The notes under the pieces are model-generated. The model had not been told where the DNA came from and made no database searches. It worked only from the letters and a program-made list of their open reading frames with translations. A stretch of DNA of 64,000 bases from Pontiella desulfatans (GTDB lineage Bacteria; Verrucomicrobiota; Kiritimatiellia; Kiritimatiellales; Pontiellaceae). The position numbers and the translations under genes were made by a program. The stretch covers positions 2,604,001-2,668,000 of the forward strand of contig NZ_CAAHFG010000001.1 in assembly GCF_900890425.1 (NCBI RefSeq), given 5' to 3'. Positions 98-31,525 of this stretch are shown here, piece after piece; within the stretch, counting starts at the first letter, position 1; every line of letters begins with the position of its first letter.

Positions 98-742
98 TTA
101 GTGGAACCCGGTGAGTTTGGCGATGGCTTCCGTGCGGGAATGAACGTGGAGTTTTTCGTATATGCGGCGGATGTAGGTGTGAACGGTGTGGATGGAAATA
201 TCCAGTTCGTCGGCAATCTCCTTGTAGAGCCGCCCGCGGGCGAGCAGATTCAGCACCTGCGTTTCCCGCTCCGAGAGTTCGTCAAGTTCGCTCGGGAGCT
301 TGTTGCCATTCGGTTTCTGGAAAGACTGCACCACCTTTCGCGCAATGGTGCTGTCCATGGGCGACCCACCCGACGCCGCATCCTCCAAGGCCAGGAGAAG
401 GTCGGTTACAATGGTACGCTTGAGCAGATAGCCGACCGCTCCGACTGCCAGTGCCTCAAAGATGTATTCCGCCTCGTCATAGACCGTCAGGATCACAAAG
501 TTCGTCGCGGGCAACGATGGCTTGAGTTGCCGGATGCATTCGATGCCGTTCGCTCCCGGCATATTGATATCCATAAGTACGATATCCGGGGCGTCGGCCG
601 GAAGCCCGGCAATGGCTTCCTCGGCATTGGGATAGAGGTTGAGGCAGGAGAACCGATCCTTTTCCTCGCTAATCAGCTCGGAAATCAGTTCCCGTGTTCC
701 GCGGTCGTCGTCGACAATGCAGACGGTTATGTTTTTTTTCAT
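98..742 (-). CDS. NarL/LuxR-type response regulator (RR1)
   Basis: The 214-residue protein has a receiver domain (about residues 5-120) followed by a LuxR/NarL helix-turn-helix (about 150-210). The acidic pocket is visible (VDDD near the N-terminus), the phospho-acceptor is the D of VLMDINMPG, and there is a lysine in LLKRT. The HTH reads [28 protein letters not shown]. It is expected to be phosphorylated by the kinase encoded directly upstream, with which it overlaps by 4 bp (ATGA), and then to bind DNA. It is a close paralog of the regulator at 30878-31525. A regulated promoter with the shared 24-bp element lies upstream of the kinase, so the pair may be autoregulated; that link is inferred. 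Family assignment is firm, target genes are not. Confidence 0.93.
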
Positions 743-8079: not shown

Positions 8080-9469
8080 CGCGTTGCCTCAAAAATAAAT
8101 GACACCGTAGAGGTGCGGATGAGGAGTCGTTTGACTGCATTAATGGGTACCCTCTAATTCGGGGGTTGTCAAGGTGGGGAGGCAGTCGGGGAACCCGGGT
8201 TCCCCGACTGCGGCGGACTCGCCGGTTTTCTTCATTTTTTCGATCTTGCGACGTCGGCGCTGGATGCGATTGCCCAGCTCGAAAGGGTCGAGCGTTTCGT
8301 ATTCGCGTTGCAGAGCAGCCTCCTGTTGTTCGCCAAGGATGCCGCTGACCTTCAGGCGGTCAAAGGGCGTGGCGGGGGCATCGTATTTCTTTTTGTACCG
8401 GCTTTTGACGCGAACCTTGCTTTTTAGCTTGAACGAGGGTTTGAAGAAGTTGTTGAGCCGTTCCCAGTCGCGGTAGAGTGCGTTGAGCTCTCTGATCATG
8501 GCCGGGTTGTCGAGCCGGTCGTAGCCGAGCAACTCGCGCACGTGCGTCCAGTTCTTTTGTTCGACATGGGCGTTGTCGTTCTTGTGGTACGGTCTGCTGC
8601 GTGTAAAACAGACGGGCTGTTTGCGTTGCAGGAAGTAGCGCGTGAGATGGTGGTTGAGGAACTCGCTGCCGTTGTCGCAGTCGAAGCCCAGGATGGCGAA
8701 GGGCAGCTTGTTTTCCACGTCGTGGGTTTGGTGCATCACGCCTTCAGCGCCTTTGTTCCAGACCGCGCGGGTTACCGTCCAGGTGCTTATGATGTCCGTA
8801 TAGGTGATCGACCAGATGAAGTCCCCGCTCATCGATCCGCCACAGTGGGCTACTGTGTCGGCTTCGAGATAGCCGGGCCGGTCGATGTCCTCGGTGGAGG
8901 TGCGGAGTGGGATCTGATTCTTGAGCAGCGAGCCGGGCTTGGTACCGGTATTGCGCCTTCGCTGGTACTGCGCTTTGAAGGGTTTGAGCACCCGGTCGAT
9001 GCTTGCCGGGCTGATTCTCAGTAGCTTTTCACGGCATTCGGTCGATAGCGGTTCGTAATGTTTTTCATAGTGCTTCAGCCAATGTGGCATAGCAGGCTTG
9101 AGGCGCTTCCCGCACAGTTGTCCAGAACGAAGCCACAGAGTTTTGAGGGTCTTGCGCAATTCAGCAGAGTCGTACTCGCCTTTGCGGCCGCGTTTGCCCC
9201 TGGAGGGCGTAAACGAGTCGTTGAGCAGCTTGGTGGCATGCTTGCGATCATAGCCGCATACCGCGCATACTTCATCGAGCAACCGGGTCTTGTAGGCCTT
9301 TTCCGCGCGCCTATAGCGGCGTTTTTGTACCGCGATGTATTCCATTCTGGTTTCGCAACTCATCTCTTTCATCCTCCCTGTATACAGGGTGTGATTTTTT
9401 GTGAGTCAACGAATCCTTTCCGCCCGCATCCTATCGGATGCTTCGGTGTCATTTAATTTGAGGCAACTC
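8080..9469 (-). mobile_element. Insertion sequence with DDE (rve) transposase
   Basis: The element spans about 1390 bp and encodes a single transposase. Its ends form an imperfect inverted repeat of about 25 bp: GTTGCCTCAAA ... AAATGACACCG on the left (8083-8107) matches the reverse complement of 9444-9467 with one extra base and one substitution in the middle. It is bounded by the 5-bp direct repeat GCATC. The exact terminal base is uncertain by 1 bp. It is inserted at the start codon of the downstream gene. Confidence 0.8.
8140..9363 (-). CDS. IS transposase, integrase-core (rve) DDE type
   Basis: The protein carries an N-terminal helix-turn-helix-like segment with a CxxC pair (CAVCGYDRKHATKLL) and an integrase core with the catalytic triad visible as the D of YLEADTVAH, the D of GFDCDNGSEF and the E of NAHVEQKNW. 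I prefer the second ATG (9363), because GGAGG lies 8 nt ahead of it and is immediately adjacent to the first ATG (9372). A 14-bp perfect palindrome, CCCTGTATACAGGG (9376-9389), precedes the ribosome binding site. The gene appears intact. The IS family name is not assigned. Confidence 0.9.
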   Translation of the reverse strand: MSCETRMEYIAVQKRRYRRAEKAYKTRLLDEVCAVCGYDRKHATKLLNDSFTPSRGKRGRKGEYDSAELRKTLKTLWLRSGQLCGKRLKPAMPHWLKHYEKHYEPLSTECREKLLRISPASIDRVLKPFKAQYQRRRNTGTKPGSLLKNQIPLRTSTEDIDRPGYLEADTVAHCGGSMSGDFIWSITYTDIISTWTVTRAVWNKGAEGVMHQTHDVENKLPFAILGFDCDNGSEFLNHHLTRYFLQRKQPVCFTRSRPYHKNDNAHVEQKNWTHVRELLGYDRLDNPAMIRELNALYRDWERLNNFFKPSFKLKSKVRVKSRYKKKYDAPATPFDRLKVSGILGEQQEAALQREYETLDPFELGNRIQRRRRKIEKMKKTGESAAVGEPGFPDCLPTLTTPELEGTH

Positions 9470-11673: not shown

Positions 11674-14511
11674 CTACTTAAGGCGAAAGAAACGCGCGGC
11701 ACCCTGATCGTCTGTCGGCTGCAGCCATTGGATGGTGCCGAACTCATTGGTTACCAGCCCATGCGATATCCAGTCGATCAGATTGGTACTGCTCTGCGGT
11801 TCGTACACCGATGCGGGCTGGGCATTCCAGTGGATGCGGTTCGGCCCGATCGAAGAGAACGAAAGCCGTGGCGGGTAGGTATATGAGACGGTTGGCCCAC
11901 CCACTTCTGTGACTTCCAACTTAACCTCGTCGTAATATATATACCCCTCGTGCGCAGCCGTATCAAAAATCAGATAGCGCGCCGAGGAGGAACCGTTGAA
12001 ACGGAAGGAACCGGAATCGACGGAAGCGCCGTTCACAAAGATTTCGTAGCTTGAGGCATAGTCGGTGGTATTGCTGTTGAAGTCCTGTACGACGATCTTC
12101 AAATCCAACGGCGTTCCGATAGCGTAACCGCTCGCAATCATCGTGTTGACATCGCTCCCACCACTGTTCGAACCGGCATTCATCCGCTTGAAGACGCCCA
12201 GCCCACCGGCCCCATCGGTTCCGATCTGGATGCCGAGATCAATCTCTTGAATGGCGAGACCGGACGCATCCGCCAAACTCAGCGACATCCGTTGGGCATA
12301 GGTCGCGCCGACCACATCGACGTCCATCTGCACGGAGAGTTCATAGGTGTTGCCGGCCAGCCAGGAGCCGAAATCGAAGCCGGTACTGCCGTTGGCTGAA
12401 AACTCGAACCGGGCATTGGCATTATCAGGAATGGCTGAAAGCCGGTTGCCGGTAATACTGAAATCCGTGGCCGGACGGCTACCGGTGTTGTACCAATACC
12501 CCGTCAGGTTGGTTGCGGCCATGCCGCTGACGCGCGATGCAAACTCATAGTTTACACCGTCATTGGCACCGAACCCGGGGTTGGGCGCGTTGCCGCCGGT
12601 CACCGTGTAGTCGTCGTAGATGACCACGCCGGGCGAAACCGCGGCATTCGTGACCGACACCGGCTCGCCGATTTCCCCCAGCACGACTTCATGGTACCAG
12701 GCTGTGAGTTGCGCCTGCATATCAGAGATTTCGGACTGCAGTCCGGCATCGCCGATCAGGTTGTTCGATTCCTCCTTATCTACTGATAAATCATAAAACT
12801 GTGCGTTCGAGCCATCGGGATTGATCAGCAACTTATAGTTCCCGTTGCGCATTGCCAGCTTAGGAGAGGTGGTTGGCGCGCCCGAAACAGAGGCATATTC
12901 CCAAAACAGCGGCTTTTGCCGCGCACGGGTAGAGCCGGCGAACACATCACTCATATCCTCCCCGGCAAACGGAGCATTCGGCAATTCAATCCGGGAAAGA
13001 GCCGCATAGGTCGGCAACAGGTCGAGTGTTGAAACCGCCGTGGAATCATTCACGATTCCCGCAGGAACCAGCCCGGGACAGCGGATGAAGAACGGTTCGC
13101 GGAAACCGCCTTCCCACAAACTGCCCTTACCGCCGCGCAAGCCGCCGTTGCGGTTCAGAATCGCATTAACGGCATCATCCGGGGCTCCATTGTCTCCCAC
13201 AACCACAACAAGCGTATTGCCCCCTGCTCCCAGATCATCAATCGCCTGCACCAGACGCCCGATCTCCTTATCCAGTTCATTCAACTCCGAAAGGAAAAGC
13301 TGCGCGGTGGTATTGCCGGTAATATGATCGAAGTCGCTCTCCTTTCCGGGATCGGTGTTATAGGGCGAGTGGGTGTCGTTATACGGCACATGCACATAAA
13401 AGTTTTTGTTCGACTCAACAGCCCGGGCGATGAAGTCGATCGCGGCATCCGTATGCAGGTCGGCACTTTCATGCCACTCCGCCCAGGTGATATCTCCTGG
13501 CACATCGGCATTCGCACTGGAGAGTCCATGCCCGATGGGCATCACGCGATCCCCCATACCTTCGAATGCGACAACGGACTCCTGAAACCCGTAGGCCTGC
13601 GGAAACGGCGCATGGTTCACATCGCGCCCGCCGCCCATGTGCCATTTCCCGAACTGCCCGGTCATGTAGCCGGCATCGCGGAACAGGCGCGGCGCGGCCA
13701 CGGTGTAGGGATCCAGCCAGTCGTTCATATTCCGGTTATCGTTTTCCGTTTTGCTGCTCAGGAAGCTGTAAATTGCATAACGCTGCGACTCGATCCCCGT
13801 CAGCACGCAGACGCGGTTGATGAAGCGGCCTCTATATTTTTCAATATCCTCCGGCCTGGCGTGGAGCGGCCAGTGGGCGGCGTCGTAGGCGGCATACATG
13901 AAAAACGGTTTGTCCTGTTTCCGCGCGTCGTCGATGAACCCGACCGCCTGCCGATCCATCTCCTCCGTCGAATAAAAGCTGCCCGGATCGGGGCAGACCC
14001 ACGGCTTCCCGTCGAGTTCGTAGATGTCGTGCTTGAAATAATCCACCTTGCCCTCGCGCGTCCAGCTGCGGTCGAAGCCGCGCAGATCAGGCATCACCCC
14101 CTTTTTGCGATTGCCGACATGCCACTTGCCGAGCTGGCTGGTGTGGTAGCCTGCCGTCCGCAACACTTCGCCGAGGGTCACGCAGGTATCGAGCAGATGG
14201 CCGCTATAGGCCGGCGTTCCCCAGTCGCCCGCCATGTGGCCGATGCCCGCCTGATGCGGATGCAGGCCGGTCAGCAGCGAGGCCCGCGTCGGCATGCAGC
14301 GCGCCGAGTTGTAGAATTGTGTAAAGCGGATGCCGCGCTTCGCCAGCCCGTCCAGCACCGGCGTCTCCGCATCGCCGCCGAAGCAGCCGATGTCCGACCA
14401 GCCCATGTCGTCCGACAGGATCAAAAGGATATTCGGGCGTCCCGCCGATCGGGCCAAGGCCGATGCAGCCCAGCCGCCCGCAAGCCCCATCATGAAATTG
14501 CGTCTTTTCAT
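11674..14511 (-). CDS. Chimeric sulfatase: N-terminal part of one S1 sulfatase fused to the body of another
   Basis: I choose the ATG at 14511 because it opens a Tat-type leader (MKRRNFMMGLAGG). In this 945-residue frame residues 24-230 are an S1 sulfatase N-terminus (LSDDMGWSD, formylglycine motif CMPTR at C72, GKWHVG, AAHWPLHA). At about residue 231 (base 13820) it switches to a second sulfatase, beginning inside its own nucleophile region: RVCVLTGIESQRYAIYSF aligns with RVSVMTGLMPQRFAIHDF of the gene at 19490-22861, just after that protein's CSPS. A second GKWHMGGGRD, HSPY and DNGAPDD then follow, so the middle is duplicated while the second CxPSR is lost. Beyond about residue 560 it matches the ancillary domain and tail of the 19490-22861 protein. 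An in-frame deletion between two neighbouring genes explains this. Activity is doubtful. Confidence 0.85.
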   Translation of the reverse strand: MKRRNFMMGLAGGWAASALARSAGRPNILLILSDDMGWSDIGCFGGDAETPVLDGLAKRGIRFTQFYNSARCMPTRASLLTGLHPHQAGIGHMAGDWGTPAYSGHLLDTCVTLGEVLRTAGYHTSQLGKWHVGNRKKGVMPDLRGFDRSWTREGKVDYFKHDIYELDGKPWVCPDPGSFYSTEEMDRQAVGFIDDARKQDKPFFMYAAYDAAHWPLHARPEDIEKYRGRFINRVCVLTGIESQRYAIYSFLSSKTENDNRNMNDWLDPYTVAAPRLFRDAGYMTGQFGKWHMGGGRDVNHAPFPQAYGFQESVVAFEGMGDRVMPIGHGLSSANADVPGDITWAEWHESADLHTDAAIDFIARAVESNKNFYVHVPYNDTHSPYNTDPGKESDFDHITGNTTAQLFLSELNELDKEIGRLVQAIDDLGAGGNTLVVVVGDNGAPDDAVNAILNRNGGLRGGKGSLWEGGFREPFFIRCPGLVPAGIVNDSTAVSTLDLLPTYAALSRIELPNAPFAGEDMSDVFAGSTRARQKPLFWEYASVSGAPTTSPKLAMRNGNYKLLINPDGSNAQFYDLSVDKEESNNLIGDAGLQSEISDMQAQLTAWYHEVVLGEIGEPVSVTNAAVSPGVVIYDDYTVTGGNAPNPGFGANDGVNYEFASRVSGMAATNLTGYWYNTGSRPATDFSITGNRLSAIPDNANARFEFSANGSTGFDFGSWLAGNTYELSVQMDVDVVGATYAQRMSLSLADASGLAIQEIDLGIQIGTDGAGGLGVFKRMNAGSNSGGSDVNTMIASGYAIGTPLDLKIVVQDFNSNTTDYASSYEIFVNGASVDSGSFRFNGSSSARYLIFDTAAHEGYIYYDEVKLEVTEVGGPTVSYTYPPRLSFSSIGPNRIHWNAQPASVYEPQSSTNLIDWISHGLVTNEFGTIQWLQPTDDQGAARFFRLK

Positions 14512-14664: not shown

Positions 14665-17600
14665 TCACTCGGCCTGTAGCTGAACGCGGTAGAAGCCTTT
14701 TGTTGTTGAAGACGGGAGAGCGGCGTCTGAGGCGAAACCCAACGTATCGGTTTGGTTTGCACCGCCGGACTGGGCAACGCCGGTGCTGAGCATCTGCACG
14801 ACGTCGAGATCGAACCAATCGACCAGATCTTCCGAATACTGGACAACATAGCGCGCGTTGTTGACCTGAAGGATGCCGCGTGCGGTCATTTCGAGGAACA
14901 GGGTTCCCGCCGCGCCCTGCGGGTCAGGCACAATATTCAGGTTCGGCAGCGCGCTGCGCGAGTCGGCCCACGGGTCGGTCATCATCACATATTCGAGAAT
15001 GTTGGCTATGCCGTCTTTGTCGGGGTCGGCATCGTCGGCGCTGATCGCCGGATTCAGCAGTTCGCCCGGAGTAAAGTGGACGGCCTGCCATTGTTCCAAG
15101 GTCTGGAAGACGCGGACGAGCACCGAAGCCTGCTCCGTTAGCGTTGAATTGGTCGTGGTCAGTGTGTAGGCCGTGTCCGCGGTCGGAGCAACCTCCAAGG
15201 AACCTACTCCATTGAACATGCGGCGAGAAACATCGCCGATGCCGGAGTCGATCGCGGCACCATCAGCGCCCGGCGCATCCCAGAGCAGGCGGGTCTGTTC
15301 GCCGATGATGATGTAGGGGTTCTCCGCCTCGAAGGTGCGCAGCAGCTCCGAAGAAGGCGTCATGGCCTGACCATAACGGGTCACCCACGTATCGGTTTCC
15401 GGATCGCCGTAGCGCACGGAGTAGGTGGTGTTGCTGAAGACATGCGGCCGGAAGCGCCGCCCCTGCGCCCGGATGGAATAGACCAGCTCACCACTCGTTT
15501 CATCAAGCACTTCCACCACCGGCTCGTTGAACTGGAGATCTTCAATCACCGGCAGGTAGCCGACGGCATCGCGTCCATAGTTGTCGGACTGGCGATGAGT
15601 GACCGGCCACCCGTCGAACTGCCCCCTGGCAGGATCGTTGAGGTCGCCGAGGATGCGCCAGCATTCAATGGTGACATCGCGCGTGCGCTTGTTGAAACGC
15701 ACCACGCCGAAGCCGGACGACTTGCGGTCGAGCATGTCCACATCGCCGGCGGTGTTACCGCCCCAGCGGTCGGGATTGGCGGCGGCCACCATGGTCAGCG
15801 GATGGTTATGGCGGCTGCGGTAGCGACCGAGATAGCGCTTGCCGTCATAGGTCGGGCTGGTGGAAAGGAACGCATCGACATAGTCCGGCCAGCCGGGTTG
15901 CCAGGACGATTCGATGGCCGGATCCTCTACGGGATCCCACTTGCGCGGATAACCGGCGGCGATGGACGGACAGGAAAAGGAGACGCCGGCATCCTCCCAA
16001 TCGTCGATGCCGATATGGGCAACGGTCGGCAGATGATTATCGCCGCCGATCATATTGGCAAAGGCCTTGCGGATGCGGGTCACCGACCGAGTCCGGGCTG
16101 GAGACGGCCATCCGTTGGCATCCTCGTCGGCGCCCTTCGGCGTATATTCATTGGCTTCGCCTGCGTGGGAATGGCACTGGTCGAAAACGGTCTGATGCAG
16201 CGTGGCCTTCATGTCGGCTCCGCTCCAGTCGCGCGCCCAGGCATCGACGAAGGCCAGCTGGCGGTCGCCGAGCTGGATCTTGTCCTCCAGCGGGATCTCA
16301 CCATCGGAACCGGTGAAGCCGCTCTTGAACTTGCGGTCTTCGAGGATGGCGAAACTGACGCGGCCGTAGAGCAGGTCGGTGAAATAGGCCCCGATCCCCT
16401 GCTCGATCGGCGCGGGATCGTATGGGTCGGGCAGATTGGCCGTCTGCGTGCGCTCCATCATATTGACCCATTCGCCGGGCATCAGGTAGCCGCCGTCATT
16501 CACCTTGGTGGTGTAGTTCCCGCCGGAGCCGAACAGGTTGGCGCCCCACGCGTCGTGGTCGTCGGGAATGGTGATGGTCGGTCGGTCGCGCATCACATCG
16601 CGGAACGCCCAGCCGAAGAAATACCATTTGCGCAGGTAGTCGAGCGTCGCCTTGTCGACAGGACTCGTGACCTTGCCACCGAAGGCATAGTCGTTTTCGT
16701 AGAGCTGGTCGCCGGTGAAGAAGAGCATATCCGGGTTGTACTGCGCTACGCGGCTGACAATATCGTGATTCGGAAAGGCGATGCTGGTGTTTCCGGTAAA
16801 GACCGCGACGGAGAGTTCGTCTTCATCGACCGGATCGCGCCGGACGGTGCCCGGGAAAAAGTTGGTGGAACCGTCCAGCTCGTACACCACACGGTAGGGC
16901 GTGTCCGCCGTGTCGTCCCAGCCCGGCACCTTGAAGAGCGCCACGCGCGCCTCGTCGTCGATCAGTGCCGAGGCCACCTGCGACCAGCCGGAACCGGTAT
17001 CGATTTCCAATGTGGCGGTGTGGTTGTCGTTCGTGGCGATGGGCGGGAACTGGGCGGTCAGTTTGAGCGTGCCTTTGCTCAGCGTATGCTGCGCCCAGAG
17101 GATGGGGCCCCACGATTCGCCGGCGCGCAGATTGGAACCCGAAACCTGCCAATCGTCGAACAGCACCAGTGGCGAGCCATACTGCCCGTCCGAATCGGCT
17201 TCGCACATCAACGCCAGGTTGCCGGACATATCGCTCGAGGGGTAACTCTTCTGGACAGAGGCGACGGTGAGGGCTCCGTTCTTCAGCACCAACTCGGCAA
17301 GGTGGCTGCCGCCGGATGGCATTAACGAAAATTCCAGCGTGTAGGTCGTTCCCGGTTCCCATTCGGCGGCCACTTGCTGATCGCCGACAAAAAGCGTGCC
17401 GTCCGTCCGGAGTCCGGCATCGTAGCCGGAGCCATGGACGATGTTGTGGCGGAAGTCATCGAGTAGCGCGCCGCGAATGGCGAAGCGGAAACCTGCCGCA
17501 CCGGCAAAGGCCGCATCCACCCGGGCGATCTTCACGCTTGTGTTGAGTGCGCTTGAAGGCTGGAGCTGGTTCGGGAGATAGTGCACCACCCGCCCCGCAC

Positions 17601-19365
17601 CGGCCTTGATGCAGGCATAGGTGCCGTTGATGTTCTGCCAGTCGTAGAGCGGCACGGAAAAATGGTCGGGACTGAGCCACGGCCGAACAACATCGTTTGT
17701 TCCGGATGCGCGCGCAAAACAGATGTCGCGTACTGCTTCGACGGCCCCGGCAACGGTTTTGAAGGTGAGCGTGACTGTGAGCGGCACAATGCCACCCGCG
17801 GCATAAACATCGATCGTTCCGCTGGTTGCCGTCCCGGTTTGGTTGCTGAAGCTCGCCGGATAGTCGGATGAAAACTCCACACTTCCAAACGCTGTAACTT
17901 CGGTGGTTTCCCAACTGATGGTGATCGGCAGCCCTTCGCCGATCTCCATGGCGCCGGCGTTTACGCGCGTGTAGACCGAGGTGGGCGCGACAAAGGATGC
18001 GTAGTCGTTCCAATACATTGCGCGAACGATGTTGCACGGCAGCTGCAGCCCGGAGGCCTGGGTGACGTCGAAAACGCCGAAGTCGCCCGATGAGTTGTTG
18101 CCGGAAAGGCCGCCCGTGGAACCGTTGTTCGACTTGATACCCACCGACAGCGTCTCGTTGCCCGACCAGTCATCGGCACTCCCCGTCGTGGCAAAGGTAT
18201 CGGGTACCACGGAGCTTCCGTCGAACACCGCCAGCCCGAGGATACCGGCATGATCCCAGGTGGCCGCCAACGTGTATTCCGTTCCGGCGGAGAGCGCGCC
18301 GTAGGTCGACTGCACCGCAACGGCGGGCAGCCCGGTGTCGGCCAACGAATCCTGCACCACGCCATCGCTGCTTCCCTGTTTGGAAATGAAGGTCGGAACA
18401 CCGTTGACCAGATAGATACCCGATCCATTGGAGGTTCCGCCGATCTCCGCCACCATTACCGTGCCGTTGGAATCGGCCGTCGACGGGATGAAGGTGACGT
18501 TGAAGGCAAAGCCGTTTTCCAGCACGGGCTGAGTGATACCCGATGCGCTGCCGCCGGAGCCGCCGTCATCCACCGCCCCGCCGTCATAGGCCGCCAGCGC
18601 GGGATCGAGACCGACCAGCAGCACGGGAGGCGTGGTCGGATCGGCGGCGTGCGCCAGGGAGACGACGTGCACGTTATCGATATAGCCCTGGAAGGTTGCC
18701 GGATCGTCAGGATCGGCCATCTCGAGGAACAATCCGCAGGCCAGCCCGTCCGCCAGATTGCCGCCGGAGAGATCCTGAGCGGAAGCAATTCCCGCCGCAA
18801 CCTCCGTCCCCGTTTCCAGGTTGGTGATTGCCCAGGCAAAATCGTAGAAGCCTGGAGCGGTCAGGATGAACGTCCCGCTGAAGTGCTGCCAGATATCCTG
18901 CCCGGCATTCGGGGAGGCATGATCCGCTCCGTTGATCTTGATGGTTCCATCGCGGTCGTTGCGCAGGAAAAAGGCATTGGCGTCATCCGCCGAGTTGCGC
19001 AGGGCGACGCGGACGCCTTCGTTGGCATTACCGCCGTTGTTGGCGCAGTAGAAGTCGTAGGCGATGGAGAGGCCGTCGATGGGCTGGCTGCCGCCGGCGA
19101 AATAGAGGACGCCCTGATTGAAGTTGGCGGTCTGGTCGCCGCCGAACAGCACCTTGGCACTGGTGTTCCCGCTCGCTTCCGGATTGGCCTGAACCGACTG
19201 GTCGCCGCCGCCGGCGACGTAGGCACCGCCGATATCGCCGGTGCCCGACATGGCCGGATCGCTGCCGATGGTGTCGGCCTCGAGGTCCGTGTTCAGCACA
19301 ACGGTTGCGCCACATGTCCACGAAGCCAGCAAAAAGGCCGCCGTCAAGATTCCTGATGCTTTCAT
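14665..19365 (-). CDS. Giant secreted PhoD-like metallophosphatase with shared N-terminal module
   Basis: A 1566-residue protein. Signal peptide (1-20), then the roughly 215-residue module shared with the next three genes (about 22-237; NFNQGVLYFAGG, NANEGVRVALRNSADD, FFLRNDRDGTIKING). Next comes a LamG-like domain (about 240-450), further beta-sandwich segments, and a PhoD-type calcineurin-like phosphoesterase (about 840-1330) with metal-binding motifs FFTGDQLYEND, TIPDDHDAWGAN and LEDRKFK. The C-terminus has a calcium-type spacer (DDADPDKDGIANILEYVM) and the FYRV tail. PhoD proteins hydrolyse phosphodiesters or phosphomonoesters; in a sulfatase locus this one might act on a phosphorylated or sulfated glycan, which is speculation. 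Three hairpins occupy the gap to the preceding sulfatase gene. Confidence 0.82.
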   Translation of the reverse strand: MKASGILTAAFLLASWTCGATVVLNTDLEADTIGSDPAMSGTGDIGGAYVAGGGDQSVQANPEASGNTSAKVLFGGDQTANFNQGVLYFAGGSQPIDGLSIAYDFYCANNGGNANEGVRVALRNSADDANAFFLRNDRDGTIKINGADHASPNAGQDIWQHFSGTFILTAPGFYDFAWAITNLETGTEVAAGIASAQDLSGGNLADGLACGLFLEMADPDDPATFQGYIDNVHVVSLAHAADPTTPPVLLVGLDPALAAYDGGAVDDGGSGGSASGITQPVLENGFAFNVTFIPSTADSNGTVMVAEIGGTSNGSGIYLVNGVPTFISKQGSSDGVVQDSLADTGLPAVAVQSTYGALSAGTEYTLAATWDHAGILGLAVFDGSSVVPDTFATTGSADDWSGNETLSVGIKSNNGSTGGLSGNNSSGDFGVFDVTQASGLQLPCNIVRAMYWNDYASFVAPTSVYTRVNAGAMEIGEGLPITISWETTEVTAFGSVEFSSDYPASFSNQTGTATSGTIDVYAAGGIVPLTVTLTFKTVAGAVEAVRDICFARASGTNDVVRPWLSPDHFSVPLYDWQNINGTYACIKAGAGRVVHYLPNQLQPSSALNTSVKIARVDAAFAGAAGFRFAIRGALLDDFRHNIVHGSGYDAGLRTDGTLFVGDQQVAAEWEPGTTYTLEFSLMPSGGSHLAELVLKNGALTVASVQKSYPSSDMSGNLALMCEADSDGQYGSPLVLFDDWQVSGSNLRAGESWGPILWAQHTLSKGTLKLTAQFPPIATNDNHTATLEIDTGSGWSQVASALIDDEARVALFKVPGWDDTADTPYRVVYELDGSTNFFPGTVRRDPVDEDELSVAVFTGNTSIAFPNHDIVSRVAQYNPDMLFFTGDQLYENDYAFGGKVTSPVDKATLDYLRKWYFFGWAFRDVMRDRPTITIPDDHDAWGANLFGSGGNYTTKVNDGGYLMPGEWVNMMERTQTANLPDPYDPAPIEQGIGAYFTDLLYGRVSFAILEDRKFKSGFTGSDGEIPLEDKIQLGDRQLAFVDAWARDWSGADMKATLHQTVFDQCHSHAGEANEYTPKGADEDANGWPSPARTRSVTRIRKAFANMIGGDNHLPTVAHIGIDDWEDAGVSFSCPSIAAGYPRKWDPVEDPAIESSWQPGWPDYVDAFLSTSPTYDGKRYLGRYRSRHNHPLTMVAAANPDRWGGNTAGDVDMLDRKSSGFGVVRFNKRTRDVTIECWRILGDLNDPARGQFDGWPVTHRQSDNYGRDAVGYLPVIEDLQFNEPVVEVLDETSGELVYSIRAQGRRFRPHVFSNTTYSVRYGDPETDTWVTRYGQAMTPSSELLRTFEAENPYIIIGEQTRLLWDAPGADGAAIDSGIGDVSRRMFNGVGSLEVAPTADTAYTLTTTNSTLTEQASVLVRVFQTLEQWQAVHFTPGELLNPAISADDADPDKDGIANILEYVMMTDPWADSRSALPNLNIVPDPQGAAGTLFLEMTARGILQVNNARYVVQYSEDLVDWFDLDVVQMLSTGVAQSGGANQTDTLGFASDAALPSSTTKGFYRVQLQAE

Positions 19366-19400
19366 GATATTTCCCTTCCTCGTTCCTTGCCTCTCAACTT

Positions 19401-19467
19401 CCCGCTATCGTGCGGGAGCCACCTCATAGCGGCGGCTCTACTCGGTAAATCCAGCGCTACGAGCTGG
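19401..19467 (-). other. Cluster of three short inverted repeats between two large genes
   Basis: Three successive dyads occur: CCCGC/GCGGG (19401-19416), GAGCCACC/GGCGGCTC with one mismatch (19416-19438) and CCAGC/GCTGG (19451-19466). None is followed by a T-run in the minus direction, so a simple intrinsic terminator is not supported. They may mark RNA processing or stability sites between co-transcribed genes. Confidence 0.4.
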
Positions 19468-19489
19468 CTTCCCGTCGCAAATGACCCAA

Positions 19490-22400
19490 CTATCTTAGCC
19501 GGTAGAATTGTTGTGCAGCTTCACCTGCTCCCGTTTCCAGCCATTGGATGGTGCCGAAGTCGTTGGTGACCCGCCCGTGGGAAGTCCAGTCGACGAGGTT
19601 GGAGCTTCTTTGCGGCTCGTAGACCGAGCCCGGCCGCGCGTTCCAGTAGATGCGGCCGGGGTCGATGGAGGCGAACGCAAGGCTGGGCGGATAGAACGTT
19701 GTGACGCTGCCGCCGTTCACCTGCATTACCTCGAGCTTCACATTGTCGTAGAACACAACGTCCTCGTGGGCGGCGTTGTCGAAGATGAGATACCGTCCCG
19801 ACATCGAACCGTCGAAGCGGAAGGCGCCGGAATCGACGGACGACCCATTCACGAAGATTTCGTAGGTCGAGGCATAGTCCACGGTGTTGCTGTTGAAGTC
19901 CTGCACCACCATTTTGAGGTCGATGGGTGTTCCGATGGGATAGCCGGAAGCAACCATGGCGTTGATGTCGCTCCCGCCGCTGTGCGAACCGGCATCGATG
20001 CGCTTGAATACGCCGAGTCCCCCGGCTTCGTCGGTGCCGACCTGGAGGCCGAGATCGACGCTGCCGACCACGAGGCCGGCCGCATCGGCCAGGCTGAGCG
20101 ACATGCGTTGGGCATAGGTTGAACCGATGGCATCGACATCCATCTGCACGGAGAGCTCGTAGGTGTTGCCGGCCAGCCAAGAGCCGAAATCGAACCCGGT
20201 GGCGCCGTCGGCGCTGAACTCGAAGCGGGCGTTGGCGTTGGCGGGGATGACGGACAGGCGGTTGCCCGTGATGGAGAAATCCGTTTCGGGGCGGCTGCCG
20301 CCGCCGTAGGCATACCCGACAAGATTACTGGCAGCCATGCCGCTGACACGGGATGCAAATTCATAGTTCACGCCGTCGCCGGCGTCAAAGCCGGGATTGG
20401 GCGCGTTGCCGCCCGTCACAGTGTAGTCGTCGGATATGACCACGCCGGGCGAGATCGCGCCGTTGGTGACCGACACCGGCTCGTCAACCTCGCCAAGCAC
20501 CACTTCGTGGAACCAGGCCGCGAGTTGCGCCTGCATGTTAGAGACGGTTGATTGGAGCCCGGCATCGGCGATCAGGTTGATGGATTCCTCCTTGTCGGTG
20601 GCTATGTGGTAGAGCTGTGCATCGGAACCGTCGGGCTCCATCAGGAGCTTGTAGTCGCCGTTGCGCATCGCCAGGGTGGGTGCCCCGTTGTTGATGGCGC
20701 CGGAAAAATAGGCGCGCTCCCAGAAGAGCGGGCGCTGGCGGGCACGGGAGGAGCCGGTGAACACATCGCTCATGTCCTCCCCGTCGAACGGCGCATTGGG
20801 CAACTCCAATCCGGCGAGCGCGGCATAGGTCGGCAGCAGGTCGAGCGTCGACACCGCCGTGCCGGAGTTGACCCGCCCCGCCGGAACAATCCCGGGGCAG
20901 CGGATGAAGAAAGGTTCGCGGATACCGCCCTCCCAAAGATCCCACTTGCCGCCGGTCAGCGAGCCGTTGCGGGAAAGCAGCGGCGTGACGCTGTCGTTCG
21001 GCGCACCGTTGTCGCCCACAACCACCACCAGGGTGTTGTCGGCGGCACCGAGGGCATCGAGCGCATCCATGAGGCGGCCGATCTCCTTGTCGAGCTCATG
21101 AAGCTCGGAGAGGAACAGCTTGGCGGTGGTGTTGCCGGTGATGTGGTCGAAATCGTTTTCCTTGCCCGGATCGGTGTCGTAGGGCGAGTGGGTGTCGTCG
21201 TGCGGGACGTGCACATAGAAGTTGCGGTTGGAAGCGACTGCGCGCGAGATGAAACCGATGGCGGCATCGGTGAACCGATCCGCGCCGATCTCCCACTCGA
21301 CCCACTCGATGGAGCCCGGCACGTCGGCGTTCTGGCTCGAAAGGTTGTGCGTTGCGCCGTCGTCGAGATAGAGGATGCGGTCGCCCATGCCTTCGAACGA
21401 CGTGAGCGATTCGTCGAATCCGTAGTCCTGCGGAAACGGCGCATCGTCCACATCGCGCCCGCCGCCCATGTGCCACTTACCGAACATGCCTGTGGCATAG
21501 CCCGCGTCGTTGAAAAGGCGCGCGGCACTGACGGTGCCAGCCTGCAGCCAATCGTTCTGTTTCTTATCATCATTCGTACTTTTGTTTGCCAGGAAATCGT
21601 GGATGGCAAAACGCTGCGGCATCAGGCCGGTCATGACGCTTACCCGCGAGGGCGAGCAGACCGGCGCGGAGACATAGCCATCGGTGAAGCGGATGCCGGC
21701 GGCGGCGATGGCATCGAGGTTCGGGGTGATGACTCCGCCCGCCTTGTTCGTGACGGTGCTGCCATAGCACGACAGGTCGCCCCACCCGATGTCGTCGATG
21801 AAAATAAACAGGATGTTCAGGTCGTTCGGCGGGTCGTAGCTGACGGAGGCCACCAGTGTAGACGCCTCGGTCGAAAGCGCGGATTCGAGCCCATTGGACA
21901 CGCAGGATACGGCATAGCGGTAGAGCGTGAACGGAGCGGCCGTGGTGTCGGTAAAGAAGGGAGCGGTCACGCCGGCCTGCAATGGTGCATCAAAAGTGCC
22001 GCCGAGGGTTGTGCGGTAAACGGTGTAGGAATCGACCCCGGGAACGGGCAACCAGTCGACACGGATCTGCGTACCGTTGGTGGCTGCGGCCTGCACCCCT
22101 GCGGGCGGCTGCGGAGCGGCCTGCACGGTTTCAAGCGTGACGGAGATATGGTCGACCATGCCCGTGAAGCCGGCGGCGTTGGAGGGATCGGCAAATTCGA
22201 TGAACAGGCCGGCGCTTTGGCCGTCGGCAAAAACCCCGGCGGCTTGGGAAAGCGAAATGCCGGCGGCCACCTCGGCACCGGTTTCGAGGTTGGTGATCGA
22301 CCAAGCAAAGTCATAGAGGCCGGGAGCGGCCTGGATGAACGACCCGCTGAAGCGCTGCCAGGTGTCCTGCCCCGCGTTGGGGCTCGGATGATCCGTTCCG

Positions 22401-22861
22401 TTGATCTTGATGGTGCCGTCGCGGTCGTTGCGGATGAAGAACCCGTTGCTAGAATCGGCGGAATCGCGGAAGCCGATACGCACGCCTTCGTTGGCGTCGC
22501 CGTTGGAACCCGCGCAATAGAAGTCGTAGGCGATCCGCAGGCCCTGGACGTTCTGCGCCCCCCCGGCAAACAGCAGGACGCCCTGGTTGAAGTTGGCGGC
22601 CTGGTCGCCGCCGGCCAGCACCTGCGCACTTCCGTTTCCGTTCGCTGCCGGGTTCGCCCCGATCCATTGCACGCCACCCCCGGGGGAATAGGTCGCACCG
22701 ACATCGCTACCCGCCGGGAACGCCGATTCCAACCCGGCTCCTGCCGATGTGGAGGCCACCTGCGCATAGCTCTCGAAATCCGCATGCAGAATGAGCGCCT
22801 GCGCACACAGGCTTGACGCCGCGAGCGAAAGAAGAACCGCAAACCACACGACTTTGTTCAT
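19490..22861 (-). CDS. Large secreted S1 sulfatase with shared N-terminal module and Fn3 domain
   Basis: A 1123-residue protein: signal peptide, shared N-terminal module (about 20-245), one fibronectin-III-like domain (about 250-340), a full S1 sulfatase (about 350-785), a beta-sandwich domain (about 800-1050) and an FYRL-type tail. The sulfatase keeps FIDDIGWGDLSCYG, the formylglycine motif CSPSR, FGKWHMGGGRD, HDDTHSPY and GDNGAPND, so it should be active once matured. From RVSVMTG onward it is the intact paralog of the C-terminal part of the chimeric gene at 11674-14511. A strong hairpin terminator precedes it, so its expression depends on read-through or on a promoter I do not recognise. 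Confidence 0.88.
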   Translation of the reverse strand: MNKVVWFAVLLSLAASSLCAQALILHADFESYAQVASTSAGAGLESAFPAGSDVGATYSPGGGVQWIGANPAANGNGSAQVLAGGDQAANFNQGVLLFAGGAQNVQGLRIAYDFYCAGSNGDANEGVRIGFRDSADSSNGFFIRNDRDGTIKINGTDHPSPNAGQDTWQRFSGSFIQAAPGLYDFAWSITNLETGAEVAAGISLSQAAGVFADGQSAGLFIEFADPSNAAGFTGMVDHISVTLETVQAAPQPPAGVQAAATNGTQIRVDWLPVPGVDSYTVYRTTLGGTFDAPLQAGVTAPFFTDTTAAPFTLYRYAVSCVSNGLESALSTEASTLVASVSYDPPNDLNILFIFIDDIGWGDLSCYGSTVTNKAGGVITPNLDAIAAAGIRFTDGYVSAPVCSPSRVSVMTGLMPQRFAIHDFLANKSTNDDKKQNDWLQAGTVSAARLFNDAGYATGMFGKWHMGGGRDVDDAPFPQDYGFDESLTSFEGMGDRILYLDDGATHNLSSQNADVPGSIEWVEWEIGADRFTDAAIGFISRAVASNRNFYVHVPHDDTHSPYDTDPGKENDFDHITGNTTAKLFLSELHELDKEIGRLMDALDALGAADNTLVVVVGDNGAPNDSVTPLLSRNGSLTGGKWDLWEGGIREPFFIRCPGIVPAGRVNSGTAVSTLDLLPTYAALAGLELPNAPFDGEDMSDVFTGSSRARQRPLFWERAYFSGAINNGAPTLAMRNGDYKLLMEPDGSDAQLYHIATDKEESINLIADAGLQSTVSNMQAQLAAWFHEVVLGEVDEPVSVTNGAISPGVVISDDYTVTGGNAPNPGFDAGDGVNYEFASRVSGMAASNLVGYAYGGGSRPETDFSITGNRLSVIPANANARFEFSADGATGFDFGSWLAGNTYELSVQMDVDAIGSTYAQRMSLSLADAAGLVVGSVDLGLQVGTDEAGGLGVFKRIDAGSHSGGSDINAMVASGYPIGTPIDLKMVVQDFNSNTVDYASTYEIFVNGSSVDSGAFRFDGSMSGRYLIFDNAAHEDVVFYDNVKLEVMQVNGGSVTTFYPPSLAFASIDPGRIYWNARPGSVYEPQRSSNLVDWTSHGRVTNDFGTIQWLETGAGEAAQQFYRLR

Positions 22862-22882
22862 ATCCGACTTCCCAACCTTAAT

Positions 22883-22910
22883 GGAAAAGGGGCTCGAAAG
22901 CCCCTTCTCC
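22883..22910 (-). terminator. Intrinsic terminator with UUCG tetraloop
   Basis: The minus strand gives GGAGAAGGGGCT-TTCG-AGCCCCTTTTCC: a GC-rich stem of about 9 bp, closed by a UUCG loop and followed by a short T-run. It lies between the stop of the Fn3 gene (22934) and the start of the sulfatase (22861). Confidence 0.75.
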
Positions 22911-22933
22911 GTTTTAAACTGCAGCGGGAGGTT

Positions 22934-25150
22934 TTACTCCCCGGTCACGCGATAGAACGACTGAGCCTGCGCTGCCGTGGTAGTGACCGACAACGTGCCA
23001 TCGATCCCGGCGATGTCCGAGACAATATTGCTCCAGCTTCCGAAGACCAGATTATCCTTGACCTGCAGGGCATAGGTGCCGAGTTCTTCAGCCGCCCAAG
23101 AGAGCTCGTAGTCGTTCGCGCCGAGCGGGACGATGGCGAGGTCGCCGATGGCCGTGATGGCGGGCAATACAGCAAACGCCCCGACGATGGTGCGGTCACC
23201 ACTGAAGTCGGGAAGCTGGAAACTGCGGCTGCCTGGCCCGTCGATGTAAGCCTCCAGTGAAACCCACGATTCGATCTGGCCGCTCCCCGGCACCTGGAAG
23301 TACGGTAGGTTTCCGGAAATGTTGGTGTATGAACCAACGTTATTGGGAACATCGCCGCCGCCATAATAGAAGTTGGCCTTGTTTCCGCCATAGGTTGCAA
23401 CATTCGTCACATACGGGGTATTGCTCACGAAGTCCGTGAGATTGGAATATAGCGCCACATCACCATCGGGCGCGCCACCGCCGTCGAATTCAAGGACGGT
23501 GTAGAAGCCCTTGGTGGCGGGATCATAGCTCGCACCATGGATGCGTTCCGTGCTGGCACCTTCCGGAGCATAGGTTCCTGTGGCAACCGTGGTCGCCGCG
23601 CCTTCGCCCGTCAGGAAATCGGCCACATTACTCCAATGCAGCACGTCGCCTGCGGCATCAATGCCATAGATTTCCCAGTTGGGCAGGTTGGCAAACGCCT
23701 GATAATTGCTGTAGGCCGGAATATTCGCCAGCAAGGTGCCGTTGGTCATTACGCCAGCCGCCATGGTGCTCCAGCCATTGGAAGCAATGGAGTTAAATCC
23801 ATAAACATCGCCGTCGGCCAGTACGAAGAAGAGCTTGCTCCCGGCATCGCTAACGGAACCGGCAACCTCGCCGCTCCCGACACTTTCGTTCCCGATGGTG
23901 TCTGTGGCCGTAACGACATAGTAATAGGATTCGCCGACGGTCGGTGCGCCGGTGCTGAAGGCGTTGGTGGTCAGGCCGGATGCAAGGGGGGCTCCAAAAG
24001 AGCCGCTGGTCGTGGAACGATAGACCGAGTAGGACGCCAGATCCGGTTCGGCATTGGCATCCCATGTCAGTTCGAACATGGCCATGTTGGTGGCGATGAC
24101 CAGGTTGGACGGCGCGGCGGGCGGCTGGGTATCGGTCTGGATGGCCACCTCGGGGCTGAAGCCGCTTTCGTTCAGCGAGGCATCAATGCTGGAGACCACA
24201 TAGTAGTAGGTCTTGCCGGATTCCGTGGTGCCGTCGACATAAGACGTCCCGGAAATGCCGGTCGCCAACGCGGCACCATAGGAACCGCTGTTGGTGGAGC
24301 GATAGACGTTGTAGGTGTTCGCAAGGAATCCGCCCGACCAGGACAGCGCAACATCCGTCCCGTTGGTCAGCGATGCGTCCAGCGAAGCCGGAGGGAGCAC
24401 ATCCGTCAGCAGCACCACGGAGACATTGTCCACCATGCCGGTGAAGCCGACCGGGTCGTTCGGATCTGCAATTTCGAGGAACAGACCGGCCGAATAGCCA
24501 TCGGCAAACGCACCCGGAGCCTGGCTGGCGAGAATGCCGCTCGTAATCTCGACCCCGGTTTCAAGATTGGTGAGCACATAAGTGAAATCGTAGGATCCCA
24601 CGACACCGGGAGTGCTTTCAACAAATGTTCCAGAGAAATGCTGCCAGGTATCCTGCCCAGCGTTTGGCGTTGGGTCATCTGTGCCGTTTATCTTGCATGT
24701 ACCGTCGCGGTCGTTGCGGATGAAAAAGCCCGAGGCATCATTGGCCGAGTTGCGAAATGCGACACGCACCCCTTCATTGGCATTACCGTTACTGCCGGCA
24801 TTGTAGAAGTCGAAGGAAATATTAAGACCGTTCACCGATTGGCTACCGCCGTCGAACAACACTATACCCTGATTGAAGTTGTCGGACTGATCCCCGCCGG
24901 CCAGCACCTGGGTACTTGAATTCCCCGTCGTGTCGGGATTCGCCCCCACCCATTGCACGCCTGCTCCCGCCGTGAAGGAATCGCCCGTGTCCCCTGAGGG
25001 GAAGGCATCCACCAAACCATCGATGGCCGCTGAGGTGTTGGTTTGAACATAACCCTCGAAGCCCGTTTCCAGCACCGTCGTGGCGCCCTGGGCTGCGATT
25101 CCACCTGCAATAAAACAGGCTGCCAACCATTGTTTTTTCTTTTGCATCAT
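22934..25150 (-). CDS. Secreted Fn3-repeat protein with shared N-terminal module
   Basis: The start at 25150 is chosen because AGGAAGG precedes it and a signal peptide follows (MMQKKKQWLAACFIAGG). The 738-residue protein has the shared module (about 22-245; NFNQGIVLFDGG, FFIRNDRDGTCKING), two fibronectin-III domains (about 250-430; each with TYYYVVSSIDASLNES or SYYYVVTATDTIGNES), a roughly 220-residue region I do not recognise (FFVLADGDVYGFNSIASNG; LPYFQVPGSGQIESWVSLE), and an AQSFYRV tail. No catalytic motif is evident; a binding or scaffold role is likely. The gene directly follows the PEP-CTERM gene by 43 bp and is probably co-transcribed with it. Confidence 0.78.
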   Translation of the reverse strand: MMQKKKQWLAACFIAGGIAAQGATTVLETGFEGYVQTNTSAAIDGLVDAFPSGDTGDSFTAGAGVQWVGANPDTTGNSSTQVLAGGDQSDNFNQGIVLFDGGSQSVNGLNISFDFYNAGSNGNANEGVRVAFRNSANDASGFFIRNDRDGTCKINGTDDPTPNAGQDTWQHFSGTFVESTPGVVGSYDFTYVLTNLETGVEITSGILASQAPGAFADGYSAGLFLEIADPNDPVGFTGMVDNVSVVLLTDVLPPASLDASLTNGTDVALSWSGGFLANTYNVYRSTNSGSYGAALATGISGTSYVDGTTESGKTYYYVVSSIDASLNESGFSPEVAIQTDTQPPAAPSNLVIATNMAMFELTWDANAEPDLASYSVYRSTTSGSFGAPLASGLTTNAFSTGAPTVGESYYYVVTATDTIGNESVGSGEVAGSVSDAGSKLFFVLADGDVYGFNSIASNGWSTMAAGVMTNGTLLANIPAYSNYQAFANLPNWEIYGIDAAGDVLHWSNVADFLTGEGAATTVATGTYAPEGASTERIHGASYDPATKGFYTVLEFDGGGAPDGDVALYSNLTDFVSNTPYVTNVATYGGNKANFYYGGGDVPNNVGSYTNISGNLPYFQVPGSGQIESWVSLEAYIDGPGSRSFQLPDFSGDRTIVGAFAVLPAITAIGDLAIVPLGANDYELSWAAEELGTYALQVKDNLVFGSWSNIVSDIAGIDGTLSVTTTAAQAQSFYRVTGE

Positions 25151-25193
25151 CTTCCTTCCTCCGTTTGGTTTTTGGTTTAACATCGTTTGTTGC

Positions 25194-26021
25194 CTAGATA
25201 TTGAACCGGCGCCGGATCCACAGCATGGCGCCGCCTGCAAAGGCCACAATGCCCAGCGTTGCCGGCTCCGGAACGGCATCCACCACGATGTTGTCCACAT
25301 AGCCCTGGTAAAGAATCGGATTGTTCGGATCGGATATTTCAACAAAAAGTCCGCTGACGAGACCGTCGGCCAGATTGGCTCCGGCGTTTTGATCCAACAG
25401 GGTCGAGCTCAGGATCTCGCTACCGCTTTCGAGGTTGGTGATGGCATACGCGACGTCATACAACCCATCTGTTCCATCGAGCGTGAAGTTGATGGTGAAA
25501 TGCTGCCAGACCCCCTCGCCTGCATTTGCAGTCGCATCGTCCGTTCCATTGATTTTAACCAGCCCGTCGCGGTCGTTGCGCAGGAAAAACCCCTGTGCGG
25601 CGTCGGCCGAGTTCCTGAGCGCAATGCGGACGCCCTCGTTGGCGTTGCCATCGGTTCCGGCATTGTAGAAGTCATAGCTAATGGTCATGCCATCGAGCAG
25701 CATATTTCCGCCGAAGTAAAAGATGCCCTGGCTAAAGTTCACGGTCTGGTCGCCGCCGCCGAGCGCCTGTAAACTGGTATTCCCATTCGCCTCCGGGTTG
25801 GCTGCAACCCATTGCTGGCCGCCGTTTCCTGAATCGGCGAAAGAACTCCCGACATCCGAACCTCCGGAAAAAACGGATTCCAGCCCGGTCGTCGGCGTGG
25901 TCGTCGCGGTCTGGGCATAGCTTTCAAAGTCCGTGCTCAACACCACATCTGCCTGGCAGGCCAGTACCATCGCACCGGCGACTCCGATTATGATCCATTG
26001 TTTTTGAACTCTCGTTTCCAT
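25194..26021 (-). CDS. PEP-CTERM protein consisting of the shared module
   Basis: This 275-residue protein is the minimal form of the module found at the N-termini of the three following genes: signal peptide (about 1-25), module (about 26-245; NFSQGIFYFGG, NANEGVRIALRNSADA, FFLRNDRDGLVKING) and a PEP-CTERM sorting signal (VPEP, hydrophobic stretch ATLGIVAFAGGAMLW, then RRR). PEP-CTERM proteins are processed by an exosortase and exported to the surface; no exosortase is in the window. It is first in its operon, behind a promoter with the shared 24-bp element. It might supply a surface-anchored version of a domain that the larger enzymes carry in soluble form. Confidence 0.88.
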   Translation of the reverse strand: METRVQKQWIIIGVAGAMVLACQADVVLSTDFESYAQTATTTPTTGLESVFSGGSDVGSSFADSGNGGQQWVAANPEANGNTSLQALGGGDQTVNFSQGIFYFGGNMLLDGMTISYDFYNAGTDGNANEGVRIALRNSADAAQGFFLRNDRDGLVKINGTDDATANAGEGVWQHFTINFTLDGTDGLYDVAYAITNLESGSEILSSTLLDQNAGANLADGLVSGLFVEISDPNNPILYQGYVDNIVVDAVPEPATLGIVAFAGGAMLWIRRRFNI

Positions 26022-30877: not shown

Positions 30878-31525
30878 CTATTCCAGGCCGACAAACTTGG
30901 CCACGGCCTCCGAGCGGGAGTGGACATGGAGCTTTTCGTAGATGCGGCGGAGGTAGGTGTTGACTGTGTAGGGCGAGATGTCGAGCTCGTCGGCGATCTC
31001 CTTCGCGAGCCTGCCGCGGGCCAGCAACCGAAGCACCTGCATTTCGCGTTCCGAAAGTTCATTGAGTTCATCCGATTGTCCGGACGCAGGCGCAGGTTGC
31101 TGGAACGATTGCACCACCTTGCGGGCAATGTCGCTGTCCATCGGAGAGCCGCCCGCCGCCACTTCGTCCAATGCGGGCAGCAGGTCGTCGACCACGGAGC
31201 GTTTCAGGAGATAGCCCACCGCACCGGCAGCCAGCGCCTGGAAGATGTAGTCCGTCTGGTCGTAGACGGTCAGCATCACGAAATCGGTGTCGGGCATTTG
31301 GGGCTTCAGCGCCGTTACGCATTCGATGCCGTTTTTGCCGGGCATGTTGATGTCCATAAGGATGATGGACGGGCGGAGCCGCGGGAGTTCCTCCACGGCC
31401 TGGGCCGAATCGCCGAAAACACCGATGCATTCATATTTGGACTCGTCCCGAATCAAATCCGCAATCATCTCGCGCGTGGCCTCATGGTCATCCACGATGG
31501 CAATCGTAACCGTCTTATCACTCAT
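30878..31525 (-). CDS. NarL/LuxR-type response regulator (RR2)
   Basis: The ATG at 31525 ([19 protein letters not shown]) overlaps the kinase stop by 4 bp (ATGA), which decides the start over a longer open frame. The protein has 215 residues: receiver domain with phospho-acceptor in [12 protein letters not shown] and LLKRS, then a NarL-type HTH ([28 protein letters not shown]). The two receiver/HTH proteins of the window are near-identical over the recognition helix region ([29 protein letters not shown] versus [20 protein letters not shown]), so they may bind the same DNA site. It is a candidate binder of the 24-bp element. Confidence 0.93.

Follow-up and report, generated by a model that had tools for sequence, protein, structure and literature searches.

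We found that four neighbouring genes of Pontiella desulfatans encode secreted proteins built on one common module, which forms the body of a small protein with a PEP-CTERM tail and opens three larger proteins, one of them a sulfatase. Across the genome, about half of the sampled PEP-CTERM proteins share their body domain in this way with a large protein encoded nearby, and the domain differs from cluster to cluster. We give roughly even odds (a probability of about 0.5) to the reading that each cluster duplicates its own lectin-like glycan-binding module, with one copy at the surface, others on secreted proteins and a common ligand for all of them. P. desulfatans F1 is a Black Sea anaerobe with 521 sulfatases that grows on sulfated polysaccharides (PMC7356697).

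A common module in four adjacent secreted proteins

The window is the whole stretch of DNA that was analysed, 64,000 nucleotides of a genome of 8.66 Mb. Positions 14665-26021 hold four consecutive ORFs on the minus strand, each with a homologous module of about 220 residues straight after the signal peptide. The features of these genes, and of one gene downstream, are as follows:

25194-26021, minus strand: PEP-CTERM protein, 275 aa, made of signal peptide, module and PEP-CTERM tail (ORF; TIGR02595 19.0 bits, cut-off 16; Pfam PF07589 18.8, slightly below its cut-off of 20.7)
25281-25964, minus strand: module copy 1, stand-alone, residues 20-247 (alignment; profile E 3e-117)
25206-25277, minus strand: PEP-CTERM sorting signal, residues 249-272 (Pfam and NCBIfam scans)
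22934-25150, minus strand: Fn3-like protein with N-terminal module, two Fn3-like repeats, propeller-like region and FYR-type C-terminal domain (ORF)
24395-25078, minus strand: module copy 2, in the Fn3-like protein (alignment; profile E 2e-119)
22943-23263, minus strand: FYR-type C-terminal domain of the Fn3-like protein (profile E 1e-17)
22862-22940, minus strand: strong hairpin with a 12-bp stem between the Fn3-like and sulfatase genes, a possible terminator or attenuator (MFE -29 kcal/mol, z -2.1)
19490-22861, minus strand: sulfatase, 1123 aa, with N-terminal module, Fn3-like linker, S1 sulfatase domain (about 20810-21817) and long C-terminal region (both S1 criteria: PF00884 151 bits, and the maturation motif C-x-P/A-x-R, present as CSPSR at residue 402)
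22124-22801, minus strand: module copy 3, in the sulfatase (alignment; profile E 8e-123)
14665-19365, minus strand: PhoD-like protein, 1566 aa (PF09423 22.9 bits, below the gathering cut-off of 27, hence named PhoD-like only)
18655-19311, minus strand: module copy 4, in the PhoD-like protein (alignment; profile E 1e-116)
17983-18537, minus strand: second module of the PhoD-like protein, related to the N-terminal module of an Fn3-like homologue in G004, a genome of the same genus (31% over 194 aa, E 2e-13)
14671-15042, minus strand: FYR-type C-terminal domain of the PhoD-like protein (profile E 9e-19)
11674-14511, minus strand: chimeric sulfatase gene, downstream, without the module; its C-terminal part is 72% identical to the module sulfatase (sequence comparison)

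The module copies were 49.8-56.2% identical over 228-267 residues in pairwise BLASTP, with E-values of 1e-78 to 1e-106 that exclude chance resemblance, and many columns of the four-copy alignment were invariant. An earlier note on this DNA had proposed one common module in four tandem secreted proteins, and the comparison bears it out; the motifs that it quoted (NFNQG(V/I), F(A/D)GG, NANEGVR(V/I)A(L/F)RNSAD, FF(L/I)RNDRDG(T/L)xKING and DxxxYxFxxxITNLE(T/S)G) are all present. Its sulfatase and PEP-CTERM assignments held, but its PhoD-like phosphatase fell below the Pfam cut-off and its Fn3 protein had no fn3 match in Pfam (the G004 homologue gives a weak one). It had also called the genes an operon. 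They lie on the same strand with gaps of 43, 72 and 124 bp, but the strong hairpin between the Fn3-like and sulfatase genes weakens the case for one transcript of all four. The start codon of the Fn3-like gene is preceded by a sequence resembling a ribosome-binding site.

In the chimeric gene, the N-terminal half of one sulfatase (motif CMPTR) is joined in frame to a stretch that corresponds to residues 405-1123 of the module sulfatase. The junction falls inside the CSPSR of the latter, and this downstream half has neither a module nor a motif of its own. This structure points to a deletion that fused two sulfatase genes (or to an assembly join), perhaps with the loss of a fifth module.

Two large, similar regulators (propeller sensor and histidine kinase, by eye) flank the region at 739-3609 and 31522-34401, and a similar gene heads the syntenic cluster of G004. 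An integrase-like transposase (by eye) is encoded at 8140-9372, close to a GH43 gene. Positions 35759-63978 contain many sulfatases together with GH2 (by domain match), GH27-like and symporter-like genes (by eye), and look like a sulfated-polysaccharide utilisation cluster.

Sequence relations and distribution of the module

The module had no match in NCBIfam or in Pfam (E up to 10), where only two weak hits at chance level were returned, and a PDB sequence search with the PhoD-like and PEP-CTERM proteins also gave no match. Neither the choice_anch models of NCBIfam, searched with the four window proteins, nor the SusD/SGBP-type families of Pfam and NCBIfam, searched with the window PEP-CTERM protein, were matched. 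An EF-hand or dockerin-like reading of RNDRDGTIKING, made by eye, was dropped because Asp is missing from the first ligand position and Pfam gave no match.

A profile built from the modules, the check that the earlier note had proposed, found exactly four copies in the P. desulfatans genome (G000), all in the window. Profile searches covered 97 relatives, 388 Verrucomicrobiota genomes and the genus and family of G229, roughly 500 genomes in all, and returned a single further copy, in G229, which belongs to a different family. With no Pfam or NCBIfam family matched, the view that the module lacks a named sequence family was upheld. Scans of genome contigs and of viral and plasmid sequences found no copy; the contig scans used short peptide patterns and are weak evidence of absence.

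The G229 copy is a stand-alone PEP-CTERM protein of 281 residues, 40% identical to that of the window, with no sulfatase and no further module-bearing gene in its surroundings. In a tree of the five sequences with G229 as outgroup, the window PEP-CTERM copy branched first and the three fused copies formed a clade (bootstrap 96). This small tree is suggestive of an older surface form from which the fused forms arose locally.

Predicted fold

AlphaFold2 models built on alignments of only four sequences had a mean pLDDT of 54 for the PEP-CTERM copy and 59 for the sulfatase copy. The best structural matches of the PEP-CTERM-copy model in the PDB were CBM66 and L-type lectins, which have a concanavalin A-like jelly roll, and those of the sulfatase-copy model were alginate lyases, X122 domains and L-type lectins. 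The two models aligned with their best matches at Z 12.1 and 12.6 (rmsd about 3.5 A over about 167 residues), at 6-15% sequence identity to the matched structures. From these low-confidence models, the module is likely a ConA-like or L-type lectin jelly roll.

The ConA fold spans binders, enzymes and inert domains; from fold and genomic context together, the module is a candidate glycan-binding domain. The earlier note had suggested a glycan-binding domain and a structural comparison with carbohydrate-binding modules. That comparison did return CBM66 and lectins, but from models of low pLDDT and with enzymes also matched, and the suggestion stands at the level of a predicted fold. It is quite improbable that the module is itself an enzyme, such as a ConA-fold polysaccharide lyase or glycanase supplied both at the surface and in fusions: the top matches of the sulfatase-copy model did include GH131 and the alginate lyases PL36 and PL14, but with E-values of about 1e-4 and TM-scores near 0.4, and no lyase or GH family of Pfam or NCBIfam matched the sequence.

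Local sharing of PEP-CTERM bodies across the genome

We surveyed 19-kb regions of the P. desulfatans genome around sites whose PEP-CTERM tails matched that of the window protein, and compared the PEP-CTERM bodies, without signal peptide and tail, with all ORFs. The sites were picked by the query's own matches, independently of their neighbours; the ORFs were called mechanically, and counts are therefore approximate. A local partner, meaning a large non-PEP-CTERM protein with the same body domain within 10 kb, was found for 31 of the 60 sampled PEP-CTERM proteins. When bodies were shuffled among sites, a mean of 0.35 proteins (maximum 3) had a partner. Local pairs matched at a rate of 8.2% versus 0.064% for distant pairs, all 53 body-partner links were on the same strand, and in 28 of the 31 partnered proteins the best match within the set was the local one. 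The partner lay within 250 bp in 26 of the 31, and 15 had at least two partners. As a control, a larger local relative was found for 27 of 55 PEP-CTERM proteins of 150-520 residues versus 16 of 106 signal-peptide-like non-PEP proteins (p 9e-6). The earlier note had described a domain common to a surface-sorted protein and enzymes in a single cluster; the pattern is real and general in this genome, with modules that differ from cluster to cluster.

In most links the homology ended at most 6 residues from the PEP motif, and the module is therefore the whole PEP-CTERM body. The 48 partners outside the window included 6 sulfatases, 2 GH43 proteins and single proteins with esterase, lipase, nucleotidase and other hydrolase domains, and most had no recognised catalytic domain. 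One of the 31 linked PEP-CTERM bodies matched a carbohydrate-binding family (CBM_4_9). Some partners held two or three module copies; binders that work by avidity often carry several copies of a binding module.

The module was N-terminal in 34 of 52 partner links and internal or C-terminal in 18, and the latter led us to reject a model of 5-prime capture only. These positions also bear on whether the module could be a structural spacer, or an N-terminal domain compatible with export, that has no ligand. The majority of N-terminal links and the place of the module straight after the signal peptide in all four window proteins fit such a role, but the other 18 links do not, and a spacer need not match inside a cluster and differ between clusters. 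We consider this explanation very improbable.

Paired copies had a median identity of 40%, with many pairs at 28-60%. This range is relevant to a docking model in which a module would bind other copies of itself, the surface-sorted copy would serve as the dock for secreted proteins and the module of each cluster would provide specificity. Many L-type lectins are dimers, and the same module does occur on PEP-CTERM and secreted proteins and differs per cluster. At such identities, however, little conserved interface would be expected between partners, and the window proteins had no cohesin or dockerin match in Pfam or NCBIfam (E up to 1). Docking of this kind appears distinctly unlikely.

Related clusters in other genomes

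The syntenic cluster of G004 (L061) encodes a hybrid regulator, a PEP-CTERM protein, an Fn3-like protein and a sulfatase. Outside the module, its Fn3-like protein was 42% identical to that of the window over 495 residues and its sulfatase 61% over 901 residues. The PEP-CTERM and Fn3-like proteins of this cluster have a common N-terminal module (61%) whose sequence is unrelated to the window module. The surface-plus-fused arrangement therefore persists while the module differs. At its N-terminus the G004 sulfatase carries neither of these modules but a third type of sequence, akin to the propeller-like region of the Fn3-like protein. In a second Fn3-like homologue of G004 (L062), the N-terminal module is a relative of the window PhoD-like protein's second module. 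In another genome (G016), a protein of 1577 residues (L063:10791-15524) has a GH43-like N-terminus (by eye) together with propeller-like regions and Fn3-like repeats, both related to those of the window Fn3-like protein.

Non-PEP partners were found for 7 of 33 PEP-CTERM proteins in G021 (shuffle mean 0.13, maximum 2; control p 0.045) and for 3 of 10 in G024. In G229, 5 of 43 had a partner (shuffle mean 1.0, maximum 4), with no excess over the control. The pattern is thus strong in P. desulfatans, weaker but present in the genus and, outside the genus, not above background in G229. The earlier note had made its reading depend on anchored and enzyme-linked versions occurring together in other genomes. 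For the window module this was not seen, as G229 has the PEP-CTERM form only, but for the pattern it was, with other modules, in genomes of the same genus.

One cluster could be compared between two species (G000 C3:726109 and G021 C1:2475934). The fused module was 73% and the remainder of the partner 80% identical, whereas the stand-alone PEP-CTERM copies were only 46% identical. From these sequences, the surface copy may diversify faster than the fused copy. The fused-copy values (73% versus 80%) led us to reject a general rule by which modules would always outpace the remainder of the partner in evolution.

Exchange of C-terminal ends

At one locus (L073:7544-9309), two adjacent tandem genes were 95% identical at the nucleotide level across the 680 bp that separate start codon and PEP motif. 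In the downstream copy, IPEPATLGL leads on to a PEP-CTERM tail; in the upstream copy, ISEPATPAN is followed by a different C-terminal domain. In this single case the C-terminal tail was exchanged exactly at the PEP motif.

Partners usually have this other domain, which we call the FYR-type C-terminal domain, at their end. It closes with an F-Y/I-R-L/V motif and in many cases is preceded by a D-x-D-x-D linker. A profile detected it in 45 of the 48 large partners, in none of the 60 PEP-CTERM proteins and in 73 of 303 comparison proteins, although the profile was trained on the partners and its enrichment there is partly circular. In the window proteins scanned, the domain had no Pfam or NCBIfam match. 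Judged by their distribution, the PEP-CTERM tail and the FYR-type end look like alternative sorting or display ends, and the FYR-type domain is possibly a second sorting domain.

The tail exchange belongs to the evidence for the main rival to a common glycan ligand, which is neutral local duplication. In repeat-rich clusters of secreted-protein genes, domain-sized stretches would often be duplicated in tandem and tails swapped, and modules would be shared by descent only, with no common ligand or matched function. Besides the recent tandem duplicate with its swapped tail, the in-frame sulfatase chimera adjoining the cluster (a sign of active rearrangement), the varying position of the module among partners and the unequal divergence of fused and stand-alone copies between species are in line with this. 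Neutral duplication explains how pairs originate, but it does not easily explain intact side-by-side copies at a median identity of 40%. It also sits poorly with larger local relatives being about five times commoner, by odds, for PEP-CTERM than for other signal-peptide-like proteins, and with the sharing between PEP-CTERM and Fn3-like proteins that is kept in G004 with another module. We regard it as somewhat unlikely.

Proposed mechanism and significance

We propose that the module, with its predicted lectin-like ConA fold, probably began as the body of a small PEP-CTERM surface protein sorted by exosortase, and that local duplication put copies onto neighbouring secreted proteins. The stand-alone copy would be sorted to the cell surface or to exopolymer, and the fused copies would be carried by large secreted proteins that include sulfatases and other hydrolases. 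All copies of one cluster would most likely recognise one glycan, the surface copy tethering the polymer to the cell while the enzymes are kept on that polymer by the fused copies. Another glycan would go with another module, hence one module per cluster. PEP-CTERM proteins may also be released after processing rather than anchored.

A common glycan would account for the predicted fold, the identity of the module within each cluster, its presence on unlike proteins and the tandem copies in some partners. The case for it is weakened because most partners have no recognised catalytic domain, because the G004 sulfatase lacks the PEP-CTERM module of its own cluster, because the rule is weaker in G021, holds for 3 of 10 in G024 and is at background in G229, and because local duplication alone could yield the survey statistics. 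A stronger, genome-wide version is possible but doubtful. It would give every cluster a private, replaceable lectin-like module whose surface and secreted forms bind the same ligand, or each other, and are exchanged as a set whenever the cluster changes.

Environmental bacteria have many PEP-CTERM proteins, whose bodies have for the most part been without homologues or assigned functions. About half of the bodies sampled in P. desulfatans now gain a concrete context, in that their domain also occurs on a secreted protein encoded nearby. That so many follow the rule, with a different domain per cluster, suggests cluster-specific glycan-binding tags, and the 95%-identical pair at L073 represents one route of such exchange of domains and tails. 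If the matched modules bind a common glycan, the substrate of a cluster could be read from a short, easily expressed stand-alone protein, and bacteria with more than 500 sulfatases would show a visible logic for holding enzymes and polymers together at the cell.

Comparison with known systems

In the open-access literature, which yielded no paper on PEP-CTERM together with Kiritimatiellota or choice-of-anchor domains, we found no earlier report of local sharing of PEP-CTERM bodies. The window PEP-CTERM protein resembles the substrates of PEP-CTERM/exosortase sorting (TIGR02595, TIGR02602): it has a signal peptide, PEP motif, hydrophobic stretch and basic tail, and its genome encodes an exosortase (TIGR02602 161.6 bits, above cut-off). 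Apart from the tail, PEP-CTERM proteins typically show no homology to other proteins (Haft et al., PMC1569441), whereas here about half of the sampled bodies have a nearby homologue on a large protein with another C-terminus.

The predicted fold resembles ConA-like lectin and glucanase domains (L-type lectins, CBM66, Laminin_G_3) over the whole module, at Z about 12, but the module differs from these in matching no Pfam or NCBIfam sequence model. By analogy, its role would be like that of the surface glycan-binding proteins of Bacteroidota PULs (SusD, SusE/F, SGBP), which place a surface binder beside the enzymes for one polymer. Unlike these, the Pontiella proteins would be sorted by PEP-CTERM rather than as lipoproteins, and the presumed binding module is also fused to its neighbours. 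As with cohesin and dockerin in the cellulosome, a shared tag could gather different enzymes at one surface; the cellulosome uses two different complementary domains, whereas Pontiella clusters have one and the same module on both sides. A parallel in architecture is offered by the choice-of-anchor domains of NCBIfam, in which one domain is combined with alternative C-terminal sorting regions. The four window proteins fall outside those models, and here the alternatives stand side by side in one cluster of one genome.
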